DNA from: Prauserella muralis
GTDB lineage: Bacteria > Actinomycetota > Actinomycetes > Mycobacteriales > Pseudonocardiaceae
Reading direction: 5' to 3'
Assembly (NCBI RefSeq): GCF_003202285.1
Contig: NZ_MASW01000002.1
Span: 1-64,000 of the forward strand
DNA length: 64,000 nucleotides
Below are positions 41,674-48,384 of the stretch, piece by piece. The translations under genes were made by a program, and so were the position numbers. Below the pieces are notes generated by a model. The model was given only the letters and a program-made list of their open reading frames with translations, was not told the DNA's origin and ran no database searches. The stretch's first letter is position 1; every line of letters begins with the position of its first letter.

Positions 41674-43180
41674 CAATGCCGGGTAGTTAGGGGCGTGGGT
41701 GTGGTGTCAACCCTGGTGGAGTAGGACAACGGAGCTTCCGCTAGAACATTGTCGACCAAGATCAACGTTCGGCGGGAGCTCCGTTGTCTGCGCAGTCTGT
41801 CATATCCCGGATGGTTGGTGTGTTCGCGCCGGGTCACCTTGGTGAGCTGACCCAGGTCGTGCCCTTCGAGATGGTCGATGCGGTGCTGGCCGAGGCGCCC
41901 GCGGCGACGCAGCGGCGGGTGCGGTTGTTGCCGGCCCGGGTGACGGTGTACTTCCTGCTGGCGATGGGCCTGTTCCCCGAGCGTGGCTATCGCGGGGTGT
42001 TTGCGTCGCTGACCGCCGGTCTGGGTGCGCTGCGGCCGGCGACGCCGACGGCGTCGGCATTGCGGCAAGCCCGGTCCCGCCTCGGGCCGGGCCCGCTGGC
42101 CGCGTTGTTCACTCTGCTGGCCGGGCCGGTGGCCCGGCCCCGCACCCCCGGCGCCTGCTGGCGGGGCCTGCGACTGGTCGCGATCGACGGAACGCAGGTC
42201 GCCATCCCCGACAGCGAACCCCACCGGGCCTGGACCCAGATGAGCCGCACCGCCTCCCATCCCTCGGCCGGGTATCCGCTGCTGCGGCTGGTCACGCTGG
42301 TCGAGTGCGGCACCCGCGCGCTGATCGCGGCGGTGTTCGGCAGCCCCGCCGACGGAGAACTGGCCTACGCGGCCACCCTGCTGAACCGGCTGCGTCCGGG
42401 GATGGTGCTGCTCGCCGACCGCAATTTCGACGCCGCGACCTTCCTCGCCGGCACCGCCAGCACCGGCGCGGACCTGCTGATCCGGCTCAAAGGCAACCGA
42501 CGCCCACCACTGCTGGGCCGCCACACCGACGGGTCGATCCGCTCGATCATCGGCGGCGTCGAAGTCCGGGTCATCGAAGCCCTGGTCACCGTCACCACAG
42601 CCGACGGGTCCCACCGCAGCGAGCACTACCGGCTGGTCACCACCCTGCTCGACCCCCAGCGTTATCCGGCCACCGACCTGATCGAGCTCTACCACCAGCG
42701 CTGGGAGATCGAAACCGCCTACCTCGCCCTCAAACACACCCTCACCCGCGGGCGGGTCCTGCGTTCGCAGACCCCGACCGGAGCCCAGCAGGAACTCTGG
42801 GCACTGCTGGCGACCTATCAAATCCTGCGCATCGCGATGACCGACGCCACCAATTCCCGCCCCGGCCTCACCCCCGACCGGGCCGGGTTCAGCGTCGCGC
42901 TACACGCCGCCCGCGACCAGGTCATCACCGCCCAGTCGATCATCGCCGGCACCCACATCGACCTCATCGGCACCATCGGCACCCACATCCTGGCCAGCCT
43001 GCTCCCAGCCCGCCGAGCACGCACCTGCCCCCGAACCGTCAAACGACCACTATCCAAATACGCCTACAACAAACCCCACCAACCCCCCACCTGCCACACC
43101 ATCACCATCGAAATAACCATCACCAACGCCGCAACAAGCCCGTTGACACGCACCACCCCGCCCTAACTACCCGGCCTTGG
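41674..43180 (+). mobile_element. IS4-family insertion sequence, apparently complete
   Basis: 1,507 bp with one transposase gene. Terminal inverted repeats include a perfect GCCGGGTAGTTAGGG (41678-41692 and its complement at 43160-43174). A 9-bp target duplication, CCCTTGGGT, flanks it at 41665-41673 and 43181-43189. The target is a palindromic repeat; removing the element and one duplication restores a full 53-bp unit like copy B. The clean boundaries suggest a recent insertion. Confidence 0.92.
41784..43166 (+). CDS. IS4-family DDE transposase
   Basis: A 460-residue protein from the start at 41784. The N-terminal IS4 domain is seen in GHLGELTQVVPFEMVDAVLA then YFLLAMGLFPERGYRG. In the catalytic core the first Asp is in LVAIDGTQVAIPD near residue 138, the second in VLLADRNFDAATF near 214 and the Y-x2-R-x3-E-x6-K signature in YHQRWEIETAYLALK near 306. 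It has no frame damage and is likely active. Its GC is like that of its neighbours. Confidence 0.92.
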   Translation: MSAQSVISRMVGVFAPGHLGELTQVVPFEMVDAVLAEAPAATQRRVRLLPARVTVYFLLAMGLFPERGYRGVFASLTAGLGALRPATPTASALRQARSRLGPGPLAALFTLLAGPVARPRTPGACWRGLRLVAIDGTQVAIPDSEPHRAWTQMSRTASHPSAGYPLLRLVTLVECGTRALIAAVFGSPADGELAYAATLLNRLRPGMVLLADRNFDAATFLAGTASTGADLLIRLKGNRRPPLLGRHTDGSIRSIIGGVEVRVIEALVTVTTADGSHRSEHYRLVTTLLDPQRYPATDLIELYHQRWEIETAYLALKHTLTRGRVLRSQTPTGAQQELWALLATYQILRIAMTDATNSRPGLTPDRAGFSVALHAARDQVITAQSIIAGTHIDLIGTIGTHILASLLPARRARTCPRTVKRPLSKYAYNKPHQPPTCHTITIEITITNAATSPLTRTTPP

Positions 43181-44931: not shown

Positions 44932-46758
44932 TCAACCGGCGACGGCGCTGCGGAAGAACTCGGACTTGCCCAGCGAGCCCTTCCAGTCCTGTGGGCTGGA
45001 GACGTCGTTGCTGCCGGTGACGATCCGCCCGGCGGCCACGTCCTTGGTGACGGTCGCGCCCGCGCAGATGTAGGCGCCCTCGCCGATCGTGATGCCCCCG
45101 ACCACGGTGGCGCCCCAGCCGACGAACACGCCGTCCTCGAGGATCGGCGAGCTCTCCTCCGCCTCGGGCGCGTCCCACGGCCTGGTCGGGTCGAGCTGCC
45201 GGTGCACGAGGTCGCCGAACACGCGGCAGCGGTTGCCGATCCTGCTCCGCTCGCACACCAGCGAGCAGCCGATGACGCTGTCGTGGCCGACGACGGCCCT
45301 GGCCCCGACCGAGGCGCGATGGGTGACGATGACCCGCTCGCCCAGTGTGGCGCCCCCTTCGACGAGGCAGTAGGTGTCGAGGATCGTGCCCGCGCCGAGC
45401 TGGGCCTCCTCGCCGACGACGCAGAAGTGCCCGATGTCGCAGCCCTCGCCGATGACGGTGGGCCGGTGCAGGCGGTCCCACTCGCCTTCCTGGAGCAGGC
45501 GGTACGGGGCGCCCAGCTGTGCGGTCGGGGCGACGCGCGCGGTGGCCGCGCAGTCGACGGTGCCGGGGATCATGGTCGTTCCTTTCCGGGTCCGTCCGTC
45601 CAGCCGCGGCGACATCGCGTCTCCGGCGAGGCCGAGCAGCTCCAGGGCGGAGCGGAGTGAGCTGGTGCGGGGCAGGTCGCGTGTGCGGGACGCCCAGGCA
45701 CGGGTGTCGGCGTCCCAGGTACGCAGGTAGGCGGCACAGGAGGCGGGCGTGATGGCGGCCCGCCGGTCCTCGGCCGCGTGCAGGGCCGTCAGGGCCTGCG
45801 CGCGCAGCGGGGACGCGGGCAGGTCGGTGATCCGGCCCGCGATCTGCGCGATGAACTCCCGGCGGCGAGCCAGGAAGCGGTGCCAGTAGCCGGGGTCGTC
45901 GGCCACGGCGCGGGGGAGCCGCAGGTGTGCCAGCTCCATCAGTCCTTCGGCGAGCACGTCGCCGAACTCCTCGCCCACGGCCCGCTCCGGGTTGCGGAAC
46001 GGTTCGTAGGGCAGCTGGCCCACCTCTCCGGTGCGGCCCACCAAGCGCAGGCAGGCCGCGTCGAAGAGGAACAGCCAGTCCTCGTTGTAGACGTCGGGGA
46101 AGAACGACTCGGCCTGGCCGACGTCCACGAGCAGCGCCGAGCCGCTGACGAACGTGTCCTGCCTGCCACCCGCGAGGCGGTGCGCGTGGCAGACCACGGA
46201 GTTGTCGGGAAAGTCGGCGACCTCCAGGCCCACCATGGCCAGCTCGCCGAGCGAGGCGGTGGCGTGCCGGACGTCGTCGGCGTCCAGGTCCGTGATGTCC
46301 TCGTCGAGGAACAGCGCCGACTCCCAGCCGAGCAGCGTCGCGAGTGTGAGCCCGAGGTTGCGCTTGAGGCTCAGGTCGCCGAGCCGCTCCACTTTGGCCT
46401 CGCTCGCCCGCGAGGTGGCGAAGCCGAACAGCGGGTGCTGGTAGCCGTCGGGCACGTCGACGGCGAGCCAGTCCAACCGGTCCGGTTCACACCCATCGTC
46501 CATTGTGGAAAGACGGTCCGCGAGCGTGGCCACGTCGGAGGCCGTGGCTTCGCGGCTGCACAACGCCACCAGTGTGGCGCCCAGCTCGCGGGCGAGTGCG
46601 GCGGCGCCGCCGAGGGCGTCGACCGACCAGGTGGTGGCCACGACGACGGCGTCCAGCGTCCGGGCGGAGCGTCCGGACGGGATCCGCAACAGCCGGCGGT
46701 GGGTGCCTCGGCAGGCCGGGGCCGAGAGCGAGGGCGCGGTCACAGCAGTTCGGGCCAT
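44932..46758 (-). CDS. Fusion of a GT-A-like domain with a left-handed beta-helix acyltransferase-like domain
   Basis: A 608-residue protein from ATG 46758; GTG 46743, overlapping the upstream stop as GTGA, is an equally good start. The N-terminal half (about 30-390) looks like a nucleotide-sugar transferase fold: LDAVVVATTWSVDALGGAAA, LFLDEDITDLDADDVRHATA with an acidic D-x-D-like cluster, and VYNEDWLFLFDA. The C-terminal part (about 400-600) has hexapeptide repeats (TVIGEGCDIGHFCVVGEEAQ, VFVGWGATVVGGITIGEGAY, ICAGATVTKDVAAG). Within the frame an ATG at 45573 has a fine ribosome site (AAAGGAAC), so the beta-helix domain may also be made alone (213 residues). It is coupled to an XRE regulator. 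No named family for the fusion. Confidence 0.72.
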   Translation of the reverse strand: MARTAVTAPSLSAPACRGTHRRLLRIPSGRSARTLDAVVVATTWSVDALGGAAALARELGATLVALCSREATASDVATLADRLSTMDDGCEPDRLDWLAVDVPDGYQHPLFGFATSRASEAKVERLGDLSLKRNLGLTLATLLGWESALFLDEDITDLDADDVRHATASLGELAMVGLEVADFPDNSVVCHAHRLAGGRQDTFVSGSALLVDVGQAESFFPDVYNEDWLFLFDAACLRLVGRTGEVGQLPYEPFRNPERAVGEEFGDVLAEGLMELAHLRLPRAVADDPGYWHRFLARRREFIAQIAGRITDLPASPLRAQALTALHAAEDRRAAITPASCAAYLRTWDADTRAWASRTRDLPRTSSLRSALELLGLAGDAMSPRLDGRTRKGTTMIPGTVDCAATARVAPTAQLGAPYRLLQEGEWDRLHRPTVIGEGCDIGHFCVVGEEAQLGAGTILDTYCLVEGGATLGERVIVTHRASVGARAVVGHDSVIGCSLVCERSRIGNRCRVFGDLVHRQLDPTRPWDAPEAEESSPILEDGVFVGWGATVVGGITIGEGAYICAGATVTKDVAAGRIVTGSNDVSSPQDWKGSLGKSEFFRSAVAG

Positions 46759-47765
46759 TCCTGGAGGCGGGTGTGGGGGCTGCGCAGGTCGGGAGTCGGG
46801 GTGGCGTGGTCGAGCACGGGGACCCGGATGAGGAGCCCGAAGTTGGTGGTGGAGGCGAAATGTGCCTGCACGTACTCGAAGTTGTGCCCGCGGGCGTTGT
46901 CGTCGGTGAGCGTACGTACGGCGCCGTACACCCCGCGGGTGAACACGCCGCTGCAGATGGTCAGTGTCCTGCTGACGTTGTGCGGGTTCGGCACGCGGGC
47001 GAGCAGGCCGACGTCCTCGAGCAGGCGCCCGTCGGCGCCGAACTGCGGCCGGAACCGCCGCCTCGCGTCGCCGGTGAGCTCGAAGACCTCGCCGTCACCG
47101 ACGTCCGGGTCCTCGACCTGCCGCACGGGCAGCTCCAGCTGCTGCGCGAGCAGCCACACCGACTGGTTGATCGCCGCGCTGCCGAGCACCACGAGGTGGG
47201 CCTGCAGGTCGTCGGACTCCAGCCGGGGCGCCAGCTCGTAGCCGACGTCCGCACCCGGGTTGGCGGCCCGGACGTGGCCGAACAACTCCACCATCGAGTC
47301 GAGGTCGGCGTAGGCGGACAGCGCCATGTAGTTGTGGTTGGTGCCCGAGGCGAACGGTGCCCGGTCGTCGCGGGGCAGCTTGCCGCACAGGATGCGCACC
47401 GGTCCGTCGTCCGGGAAATGCCAGAAGCCGCTCTGGGGTTCACCCGCGCCGGTGCCCTGAACCCCGTGCAGCCGCTCCAGCTCGTTCTTGAGCCGGTGGT
47501 ACTCCAGGCGCTCGTCCTCGGTGAGGTCCGCGACGCCGATAAGCCGTGCGGTCCCGGCGGTACGCGGGGTGGCGAAGAAGGCCGCGTAGTCGGCCAGCCG
47601 GGCGGGCGGCGGGACCTTGGCCCCGTTCTCCCACGACGAGACGCTGGACACGGCGACGCCGAGCGCACCGGCCAGCGCGGGCTGCGTCAGGCGTCTGTCC
47701 AGCCGCAGCTGTCGCAGCCTGCGCGACAGCTCGTCCGGCTCGCCCTGCCGCCTCGGTCGCCCCAT
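46740..47765 (-). CDS. XRE-family regulator with a large uncharacterised C-terminal domain
   Basis: A 341-residue protein starting at ATG 47765. The HTH lies at about residues 12-55 (LRQLRLDRRLTQPALAGALG, VAVSSVSSWENGAKVPPPAR). After a linker comes a domain of about 230 residues: PVRILCGKLPRDDRAPFASG, YADLDSMVELFGHVRAANPG, HLVVLGSAAINQSVWLLAQQ and TICSGVFTRGVYGAVRTLTD. Its alternating beta-alpha look suggests a Rossmann-like ligand or nucleotide domain, but I do not recognise it. It overlaps the GT/beta-helix gene by 19 bases, forming an operon. Confidence 0.75.
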   Translation of the reverse strand: MGRPRRQGEPDELSRRLRQLRLDRRLTQPALAGALGVAVSSVSSWENGAKVPPPARLADYAAFFATPRTAGTARLIGVADLTEDERLEYHRLKNELERLHGVQGTGAGEPQSGFWHFPDDGPVRILCGKLPRDDRAPFASGTNHNYMALSAYADLDSMVELFGHVRAANPGADVGYELAPRLESDDLQAHLVVLGSAAINQSVWLLAQQLELPVRQVEDPDVGDGEVFELTGDARRRFRPQFGADGRLLEDVGLLARVPNPHNVSRTLTICSGVFTRGVYGAVRTLTDDNARGHNFEYVQAHFASTTNFGLLIRVPVLDHATPTPDLRSPHTRLQEWPELL

Positions 47766-47806
47766 GCGTCGGGTTCCCTTCCCGGTGGATCGACGACTTC
47801 ACCGAA

Positions 47807-47960
47807 CTTCACCGCACCACTGAAGACCAGCGAATCCTGCCACTTCGTCATTTCTAGAGCAAGACGAAACACTCCACAGCGTTGACCCTGGTTCGTGTGG
47901 CGTCGTAATCTGAGGACGCCGCGTTACACCGCCTGGGCAAACTTCACTGAAGTGGTGAAG
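47807..47960. promoter_or_regulatory. Repeated CTTCAC/GTGAAG sites upstream of the XRE gene
   Basis: CTTCACCGCACCACTGAAG (47807-47825) and CTTCACTGAAGTGGTGAAG (47942-47960) are imperfect and perfect 19-bp dyads, and further CTTCACC half-sites lie near 47797. They flank a 364-base intergenic region between the leftward XRE gene and the rightward small membrane gene. They are likely binding sites for the XRE protein. Confidence 0.5.
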
Positions 47961-48032
47961 CAAGCCGGTGGGGAGGTGGTACTGGGAGTCTTCTCGACTG
48001 AGGCCGGCCTTGTGCTTCGGCCTGCACTGACG

Positions 48033-48075
48033 GCAACACCCCCGGACATCGTGTGGTCGCGACCGGGGGTGCTGC
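48033..48075 (+). promoter_or_regulatory. Strong hairpin in the leader of the 84-residue membrane protein
   Basis: CACCCCCGG (48037-48045) pairs with CCGGGGGTG (48063-48071); the stem extends to 12 of 13 pairs. It lies 54 bases before the start at 48130 and has no T tract. It could be a terminator of a short leader transcript (attenuator) or a structural element. Confidence 0.5.
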
Positions 48076-48129
48076 GCGAGTCACGAACCCCGTTCCCGGG
48101 TCTGCCGTTCCCAAGACGAGGAGTTCGCC

Positions 48130-48384
48130 GTGTCCACGATACCTCTGGCCGTGGCAGCCGTAAACGAGCTGCCACCTGCGGCCGCGCCGGTGTCCACTGT
48201 GGCGCCGAGCCTGTTGTTCATCGCCGTGTTCGCCCTGATCGCAGCCGTGTCCGTGCTCCTGCGCGCGGTGCAGGGGCTCATCACCGTCGCCAAGACGGTG
48301 GTCGCCCCGCTCTTCGCCGCGTTCGCGGTGCTGGTGGTGGTGACGCTGGTCGTCGCCGCCGGAATGTCCTGGCTGCAACTGTGA
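48130..48384 (+). CDS. Small two-helix membrane protein
   Basis: An 84-residue protein from GTG 48130 with ACGAGGAG upstream. Two hydrophobic helices, LLFIAVFALIAAVSVLLRAV (about 28-47) and LFAAFAVLVVVTLVVAAGM (about 61-79), are separated by a short amphipathic stretch (QGLITVAKTVVAP). I know no family. It is divergent from the XRE-GT operon with putative XRE sites between, and a terminator follows, so it may belong to the same system. Confidence 0.6.
   Translation: MSTIPLAVAAVNELPPAAAPVSTVAPSLLFIAVFALIAAVSVLLRAVQGLITVAKTVVAPLFAAFAVLVVVTLVVAAGMSWLQL

Follow-up and report, generated by a model that had tools for sequence, protein, structure and literature searches.

The window analysed here is a stretch of 64,000 nucleotides from Prauserella muralis (contig NZ_MASW01000002.1, positions 1 to 64,000), and the locus in question comprises three of its genes. 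An XRE regulator gene (46740-47765, minus strand) encodes a protein of 341 amino acids, and its end is overlapped by a gene (44932-46758, minus strand) for a 608 amino acid protein, in which a glycosyltransferase (GT) domain of the GT-A type is fused to a left-handed beta-helix (LbH) acyltransferase domain. A small membrane protein of 84 amino acids with two hydrophobic helices is encoded divergently from the XRE gene (48130-48384, plus strand), and the two starts (47765 and 48130) are separated by a gap of 364 bp, exactly the distance given in a first-pass annotation made from the sequence. The regulator together with the sugar enzyme/acyltransferase is a real, conserved and apparently undescribed actinomycete module. 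The same annotation had known of no characterised system with these parts, and none was found in Pfam, NCBIfam, PADLOC or limited literature searching.

Regulator, glycosyltransferase and acyltransferase

The ATG of the fusion gene sits 19 nt within the XRE gene, while with an alternative in-frame GTG start, at 46743, the overlap would be 4 nt (GTGA). Since the fusion reading frame begins inside the end of the XRE gene, the two genes are probably translationally coupled, as had been proposed. This gene order was present in other genomes as well and is not unique to the strain. The GT domain was found in 58 of 297 genomes of the family, and each of the 58 had an XRE match immediately upstream and in the same orientation, in most cases overlapping the GT or no more than about 110 bp from it, as judged by eye from the coordinates. 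Nonomuraea, Kribbella, Asanoa and Actinoplanes are among the others in which such pairs occur. A search of 396 genomes across the phylum with the profile of the GT (four candidates scored per genome) returned the home genome only and was not used as a measure of distribution. For 30 loci the pairwise distances of the XRE and the GT proteins were correlated with r = 0.91, a value that includes a contribution from shared species history and was reached in none of 2000 permutations. Because the distances correlate and the main groups are the same in both trees, the data point to the XRE-GT pair having been inherited as a unit in several actinomycete orders. In both trees a record labelled Streptomyces sp. 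SID13031 clusters with Kribbella, so this name may be wrong.

The regulator carries HTH_31 at residues 12-68 (E 9.7e-12), HTH_31 and HTH_3 both exceeding their Pfam cut-offs, and thus has the Cro/C1-type helix-turn-helix (HTH) of the XRE family. The large unassigned domain noted in the first-pass annotation is indeed there: the Pfam scan gave no significant match to the C-terminal two thirds of the protein. In the structure model (pLDDT 83.9) the HTH is followed by a long helix and by a C-terminal alpha/beta domain at approximately residues 108-341, which resembles BcsB (Z 10.2 over 165 residues) and also the N-terminal domains of GH67, GH84 and GH115 and an archaeal S-layer anchoring domain. 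Since the Foldseek E-values are above 0.001, the likeness to BcsB and GH67-N is a lead at the level of the fold. The presence of such a large conserved C-terminal domain makes control of the regulator by a ligand plausible.

Distant homologues of this C-terminal domain, joined to a different N-terminal domain, occur in 15 of 294 genomes of the family. Seven of these loci were examined, and in six of them (L104-L108, L110) the regulator adjoins genes for a GT25 glycosyltransferase (assigned by Pfam), an LbH protein and an alpha/beta hydrolase, the latter two on the opposite strand; the seventh had no GT25 match. This group of four genes is apparently undescribed. This type of domain is thus met again next to a glycosyltransferase and an LbH acyltransferase that differ in make-up. 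It is possible, as a tentative proposal, that the domain is a new sensor of sugars or sugar nucleotides, derived from the BcsB/GH67-N fold and used in two or more families of DNA-binding proteins in actinomycetes, each of which would control its own glycosyltransferase-acyltransferase module making an undescribed acylated glycoside. Remoter XRE relatives (about 30% identity; L115, L116 and L117) adjoin a hydrophobic protein of 60-66 amino acids and also lie near a protein of 967-974 amino acids, to which Pfam assigns AMP-binding and hydrolase domains in L117.

The suggested GT-A-like and hexapeptide fusion was borne out in both halves, with unequal structural support. AlphaFold2, run with 17 sequences, modelled residues 20-380 of the fusion confidently and the LbH part poorly, so that of the two predictions called for earlier, that of the fusion gave a confident GT-A model but a low-confidence acyltransferase, while that of the regulator gave the fold leads above. 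The GT-A domain (45619-46701, minus strand; approximately residues 20-380) was delimited from the model, the profile and the invariant columns. Its DXD motif is D152-E153-D154, and D152 and D154, KRN (132-134) and YNED (224-227) are invariant across 34 relatives; the domain therefore has a GT-A fold with a DXD motif. The model is structurally closest to six MtdL entries (Z 18.4-18.7, spanning about 263 residues); mannosyl-3-phosphoglycerate synthase (Z 15.5) and rice UAM2 (Z 15.4) come next, and many GT-A enzymes reach Z 12-15. When the profile of the 34 relatives was compared with the PDB, MtdL again came first (E 0.0015), the match covering only the first part of the domain and ending at the DXD.

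The LbH domain (44974-45465, minus strand; approximately residues 432-595) was placed by Pfam Hexapep and by alignment with separate LbH proteins. The Hexapep match is above the cut-off (E 4.1e-13), with repeats at about 430-595, and in the alignment H519 is the sole histidine of the domain invariant among its relatives, which makes it a candidate for the catalytic residue. Fused GT-LbH proteins occur in P. muralis, in the genome G055 and in Saccharopolyspora soli, those of the latter two being 67-68% identical to the P. muralis protein, while in Amycolatopsis xylanica the GT and LbH are separate overlapping reading frames; these four form one supported clade in both the XRE and the GT trees. 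Elsewhere in the trees, one GNAT family stands beside the XRE-GT pair at 14 loci and other GNATs at six further loci. A GT fused to a GNAT acetyltransferase was also found in Nonomuraea endophytica (L071:4938-6641), next to a second, unfused GT copy. As LbH is found in one clade and unrelated GNATs elsewhere, with fusions to either, the acyltransferase step appears to matter and its fold to be replaceable. GlmU was rejected as the identity of the fusion protein, with a best score of 43.5 bits against a cut-off of 725 and matches confined to the LbH part.

Operator, putative promoters and the divergent small protein

The gap between the divergent genes had been described as filled with CTTCAC/GTGAAG dyads. 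Four exact hexamers lie in the 364 bp, against approximately 0.11 expected from the window-wide rate, but they make up merely two dyads, so the wording was a slight overstatement. One putative operator dyad lies by the XRE gene (47796-47825, CTTCACCGAACTTCACCGCACCACTGAAG), its position and sequence kept in relatives, and the other on the small-protein side (47941-47960, ACTTCACTGAAGTGGTGAAG). The 19-bp dyad on the small-protein side is identical in G055 and has one mismatch in its arms in S. soli. In the whole window CTTCAC hexamers are about as frequent as in shuffled sequence (24 versus 20.2). The 13-bp palindrome ACTTCANTGAAGT has a single exact occurrence in the 7.47-Mb genome, in the small-protein-side dyad, and the looser pattern CTTCAC-N7-GTGAAG has one other exact match in the genome.

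Conservation of the dyads, which the first-pass annotation had left to be checked, was found in the promoters of relatives. The top enriched 6-mers and 7-mers in 34 homologous upstream regions all derive from a single motif, AACTTCA/CTGAAG. An exact TTCANTGAA is present in 16 of these regions, where dinucleotide shuffles predict 0.06; allowing one mismatch raises the count to 23, with 2.9 predicted. Because the 34 regions are related these figures overstate their independence, though much of the flanking sequence has diverged. The dyads are part of a conserved, family-wide putative operator. Since a consensus scan of the gap for promoters and terminators found none, both putative promoters were picked out by eye on the basis of column conservation: TTGCTC-17-CAGGAT for the XRE gene (47834-47862, minus strand) and TTGACC-18-TAATCT for the small-protein gene (47882-47911, plus strand). 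One dyad lies just past each putative promoter, a placement that fits repression of both.

For the small membrane protein, orthologues of 84-85 amino acids were found in nine genomes, all with two hydrophobic stretches, as had been described, and all beginning (M/V)xTI, which supports the GTG start at 48130. Its presumed 5' untranslated region contains a leader hairpin (48037-48071, plus strand) kept in the nine genomes: CRCCCCCGG, a 3-nt bulge, UCGU, the loop, RCGA and CCGGGGGYG, with one double change of A-U to G-C. The hairpin always precedes the small-protein gene and occurs only at this type of locus; two other matches to its pattern in the family search have three mismatches each and look like chance. 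A comparison with known RNA families in Rfam gave no match. As the whole leader folds only slightly better than shuffles (z -1.5), the case for the hairpin rests on its conservation.

Elsewhere the divergent position is often held by a class III nucleotidyl cyclase-like protein or by another small hydrophobic protein. The best PDB profile match of the cyclase-like protein is Ma1120, a weak one (E 0.063); its gene lies upstream of XRE in L086, L088-L092, L096, L098, L099 and L103 and encodes VDIEGST and GDG motifs with no Pfam match. Because six of the nine genomes with the small protein lack a GT beside it and other proteins hold its position elsewhere, the small protein is, as judged from gene context, a partner of the regulator in this clade and not an obligate part of the GT module. 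The earlier view of the three parts as one system therefore stands for the XRE-GT pair, but the LbH domain is lineage-specific and the small protein has clear orthologues in nine genomes only.

A transposase-like reading frame, identified by eye, lies near the module at 41784-43166 (plus strand).

Proposed function and alternative explanations

The conserved control sites and the matched evolution of the proteins suggest a module that produces or alters an acylated sugar compound when it is needed. We propose, with a probability of about one half, that the locus is a small autoregulated, ligand-controlled module of glycosyltransfer and acylation making an acylated sugar product. The XRE protein would bind the TTCAC/TTCANTGAA dyads just downstream of the two divergent promoters and so repress both its own operon (XRE and GT/acyltransferase) and the small-protein gene. 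The carbohydrate-enzyme-like C-terminal domain may sense a ligand that alters the repression and is probably a sugar or a sugar nucleotide. The GT-A domain would transfer a sugar onto an acceptor, most likely from a GDP-sugar, a donor proposed because MtdL and several of the next-best matches use GDP-sugars. The fused LbH domain, or GNAT in most relatives, would acylate the product, and the small two-helix protein may tether or help it at the membrane. A surface location of the product, as first suggested, was not borne out by anything found. Gene order, co-inheritance, the conserved operator and the DXD motif are established, as are, by model, the folds; repression, ligand, sugar donor, order of the reactions and the role of the small protein are inferred from anatomy and conservation.

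Several observations weigh against this proposal. The nearest relative of the GT domain, MtdL, is a mutase rather than a transferase. Confidence in the model of the LbH part is low, and the remaining six loci of the trees have no acyltransferase neighbour. The Foldseek E-values of the regulator domain are just over the threshold given above and its type of fold is common. Finally, the small protein is absent from many XRE-GT loci.

The first of these points leads to a different explanation, in which the GT-A domain would act as an NDP-pyranose/furanose mutase of the GT75 kind and the module would provide other transferases with an acylated furanosyl donor. Among the residues essential to MtdL, a GDP-pyranose/furanose mutase of GT75, are D87, D109, R159, D195, R257 and D260, and its metal is bound by D111 and H287 (PMC9937993). 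MtdL is the best match both by model and by profile, and the DXD and the Asp before KRN line up with essential MtdL residues and are apparently kept. By hand alignment, however, no clear counterpart was seen for R159, R257 or H287, and the stretch from the DXD to the second acidic motif is 72 residues against 149 in MtdL. The residues from D154 to D185 include no conserved Arg; R194, which at least 90% of relatives retain, could serve for R159, and the invariant P253 falls near the position of H287 (residues likewise mapped by hand). A direct profile alignment of MtdL 182-318 to the GT family gave no usable alignment. Because of the missing counterparts and the much shorter core we favour a transferase over a mutase on this hand mapping, and the mutase explanation seems improbable. 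If the proposed module is confirmed, the domain would represent a GT-A subfamily near GT75 without assigned activity.

A drug- or toxin-inactivation module, in which a harmful small molecule sensed by the XRE protein would switch on an enzyme to glycosylate and acylate that molecule, has a somewhat better chance than a mutase but is still unlikely. The single-locus operator, the scattered distribution with changing neighbours and the two-enzyme chemistry would all agree with it, and xenobiotic acetyltransferases occur in both the LbH and the GNAT folds. The LbH matches to the Vat and CatB models are generic, however, no resistance family was matched above cut-off, the XRE and GT parts were not found on plasmids, and a carbohydrate-enzyme-like sensor fold is atypical of drug sensors. 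We give least credit to the XRE and small proteins being a toxin-antitoxin-like or membrane-stress unit with the GT gene as a passenger in this lineage. Six genomes do have the small protein and the leader hairpin together with two XRE genes in tandem but no adjacent GT: in three of them this was seen in the loci read (L102, L111, L112), and the other three have two adjacent XRE matches. Small two-helix proteins also stand beside other XRE relatives, and the hairpin suggests tight control. Yet the constant partner of XRE is the GT (all 58 genomes with GT), many loci either lack the small protein or have a cyclase-homology protein in its place, and PADLOC gives generic HTH similarity only.

Other origins were rejected. 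There were no relatives in phage records or viral contigs and PADLOC found nothing beyond the HTH, which gives no sign of a phage or defence origin. The DNA-glycosylating phage TET-associated glycosyltransferases (TAGT, PF20691) matched below threshold, with a best E of 0.015 and weakly in 4 of 17 members, and neither the home genome nor 61 genomes of its order gave a match to this family. On plasmids only generic LbH matches and no XRE match were obtained.

The proposed glycosyltransfer and acylation module is thus a defined inherited unit of regulator, operator, GT and acyltransferase, in which two unrelated acyltransferase folds interchange and whose regulator has a domain also found next to another kind of glycosyltransferase. 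Its confirmation would give carbohydrate biology a further type of regulator and a route to an acylated sugar product. As the operator is confined to a single locus in the genome, the regulatory claim is directly testable.

Relation to known systems

The closest enzymes are MtdL and Hyg20, the GT75 NDP-pyranose mutases of A201A and hygromycin biosynthesis (PMC9937993), likewise actinomycete enzymes acting on GDP-sugars, with which the GT domain shares the RN-G and DXD region as well as its best fold and profile match. It differs from them in its shorter core, its fused acyltransferase and its own XRE regulator. Mannosyl-3-phosphoglycerate synthase (GT55), the next-best fold, is also a GT-A enzyme with a GDP-sugar donor, but no sequence match to it was found and it has neither acyltransferase nor regulator. 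GlmU similarly joins a GT-A-like N-terminal domain to an LbH acetyltransferase, but it is a housekeeping enzyme and the N-terminal domain of the fusion is from another family.

The C-terminal fold of the regulator is shared with BcsB and the N-terminal domains of GH67, GH84 and GH115 (Z approximately 9-10 over 125-166 residues), which are extracytoplasmic or hydrolase accessory domains rather than parts of transcription factors and are about 10-14% identical to it. The loci with GT25, LbH and hydrolase genes have a homologous regulator C-terminal domain of 24-28% identity and homologous LbH proteins of 33-36%, likewise beside a glycosyltransferase. They differ in the N-terminal domain of the regulator, in having GT25 in place of the MtdL-like GT, in their separate genes and in the extra alpha/beta hydrolase. 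We know of no published name for these loci, in which a homologous regulator domain accompanies another glycosyltransferase.

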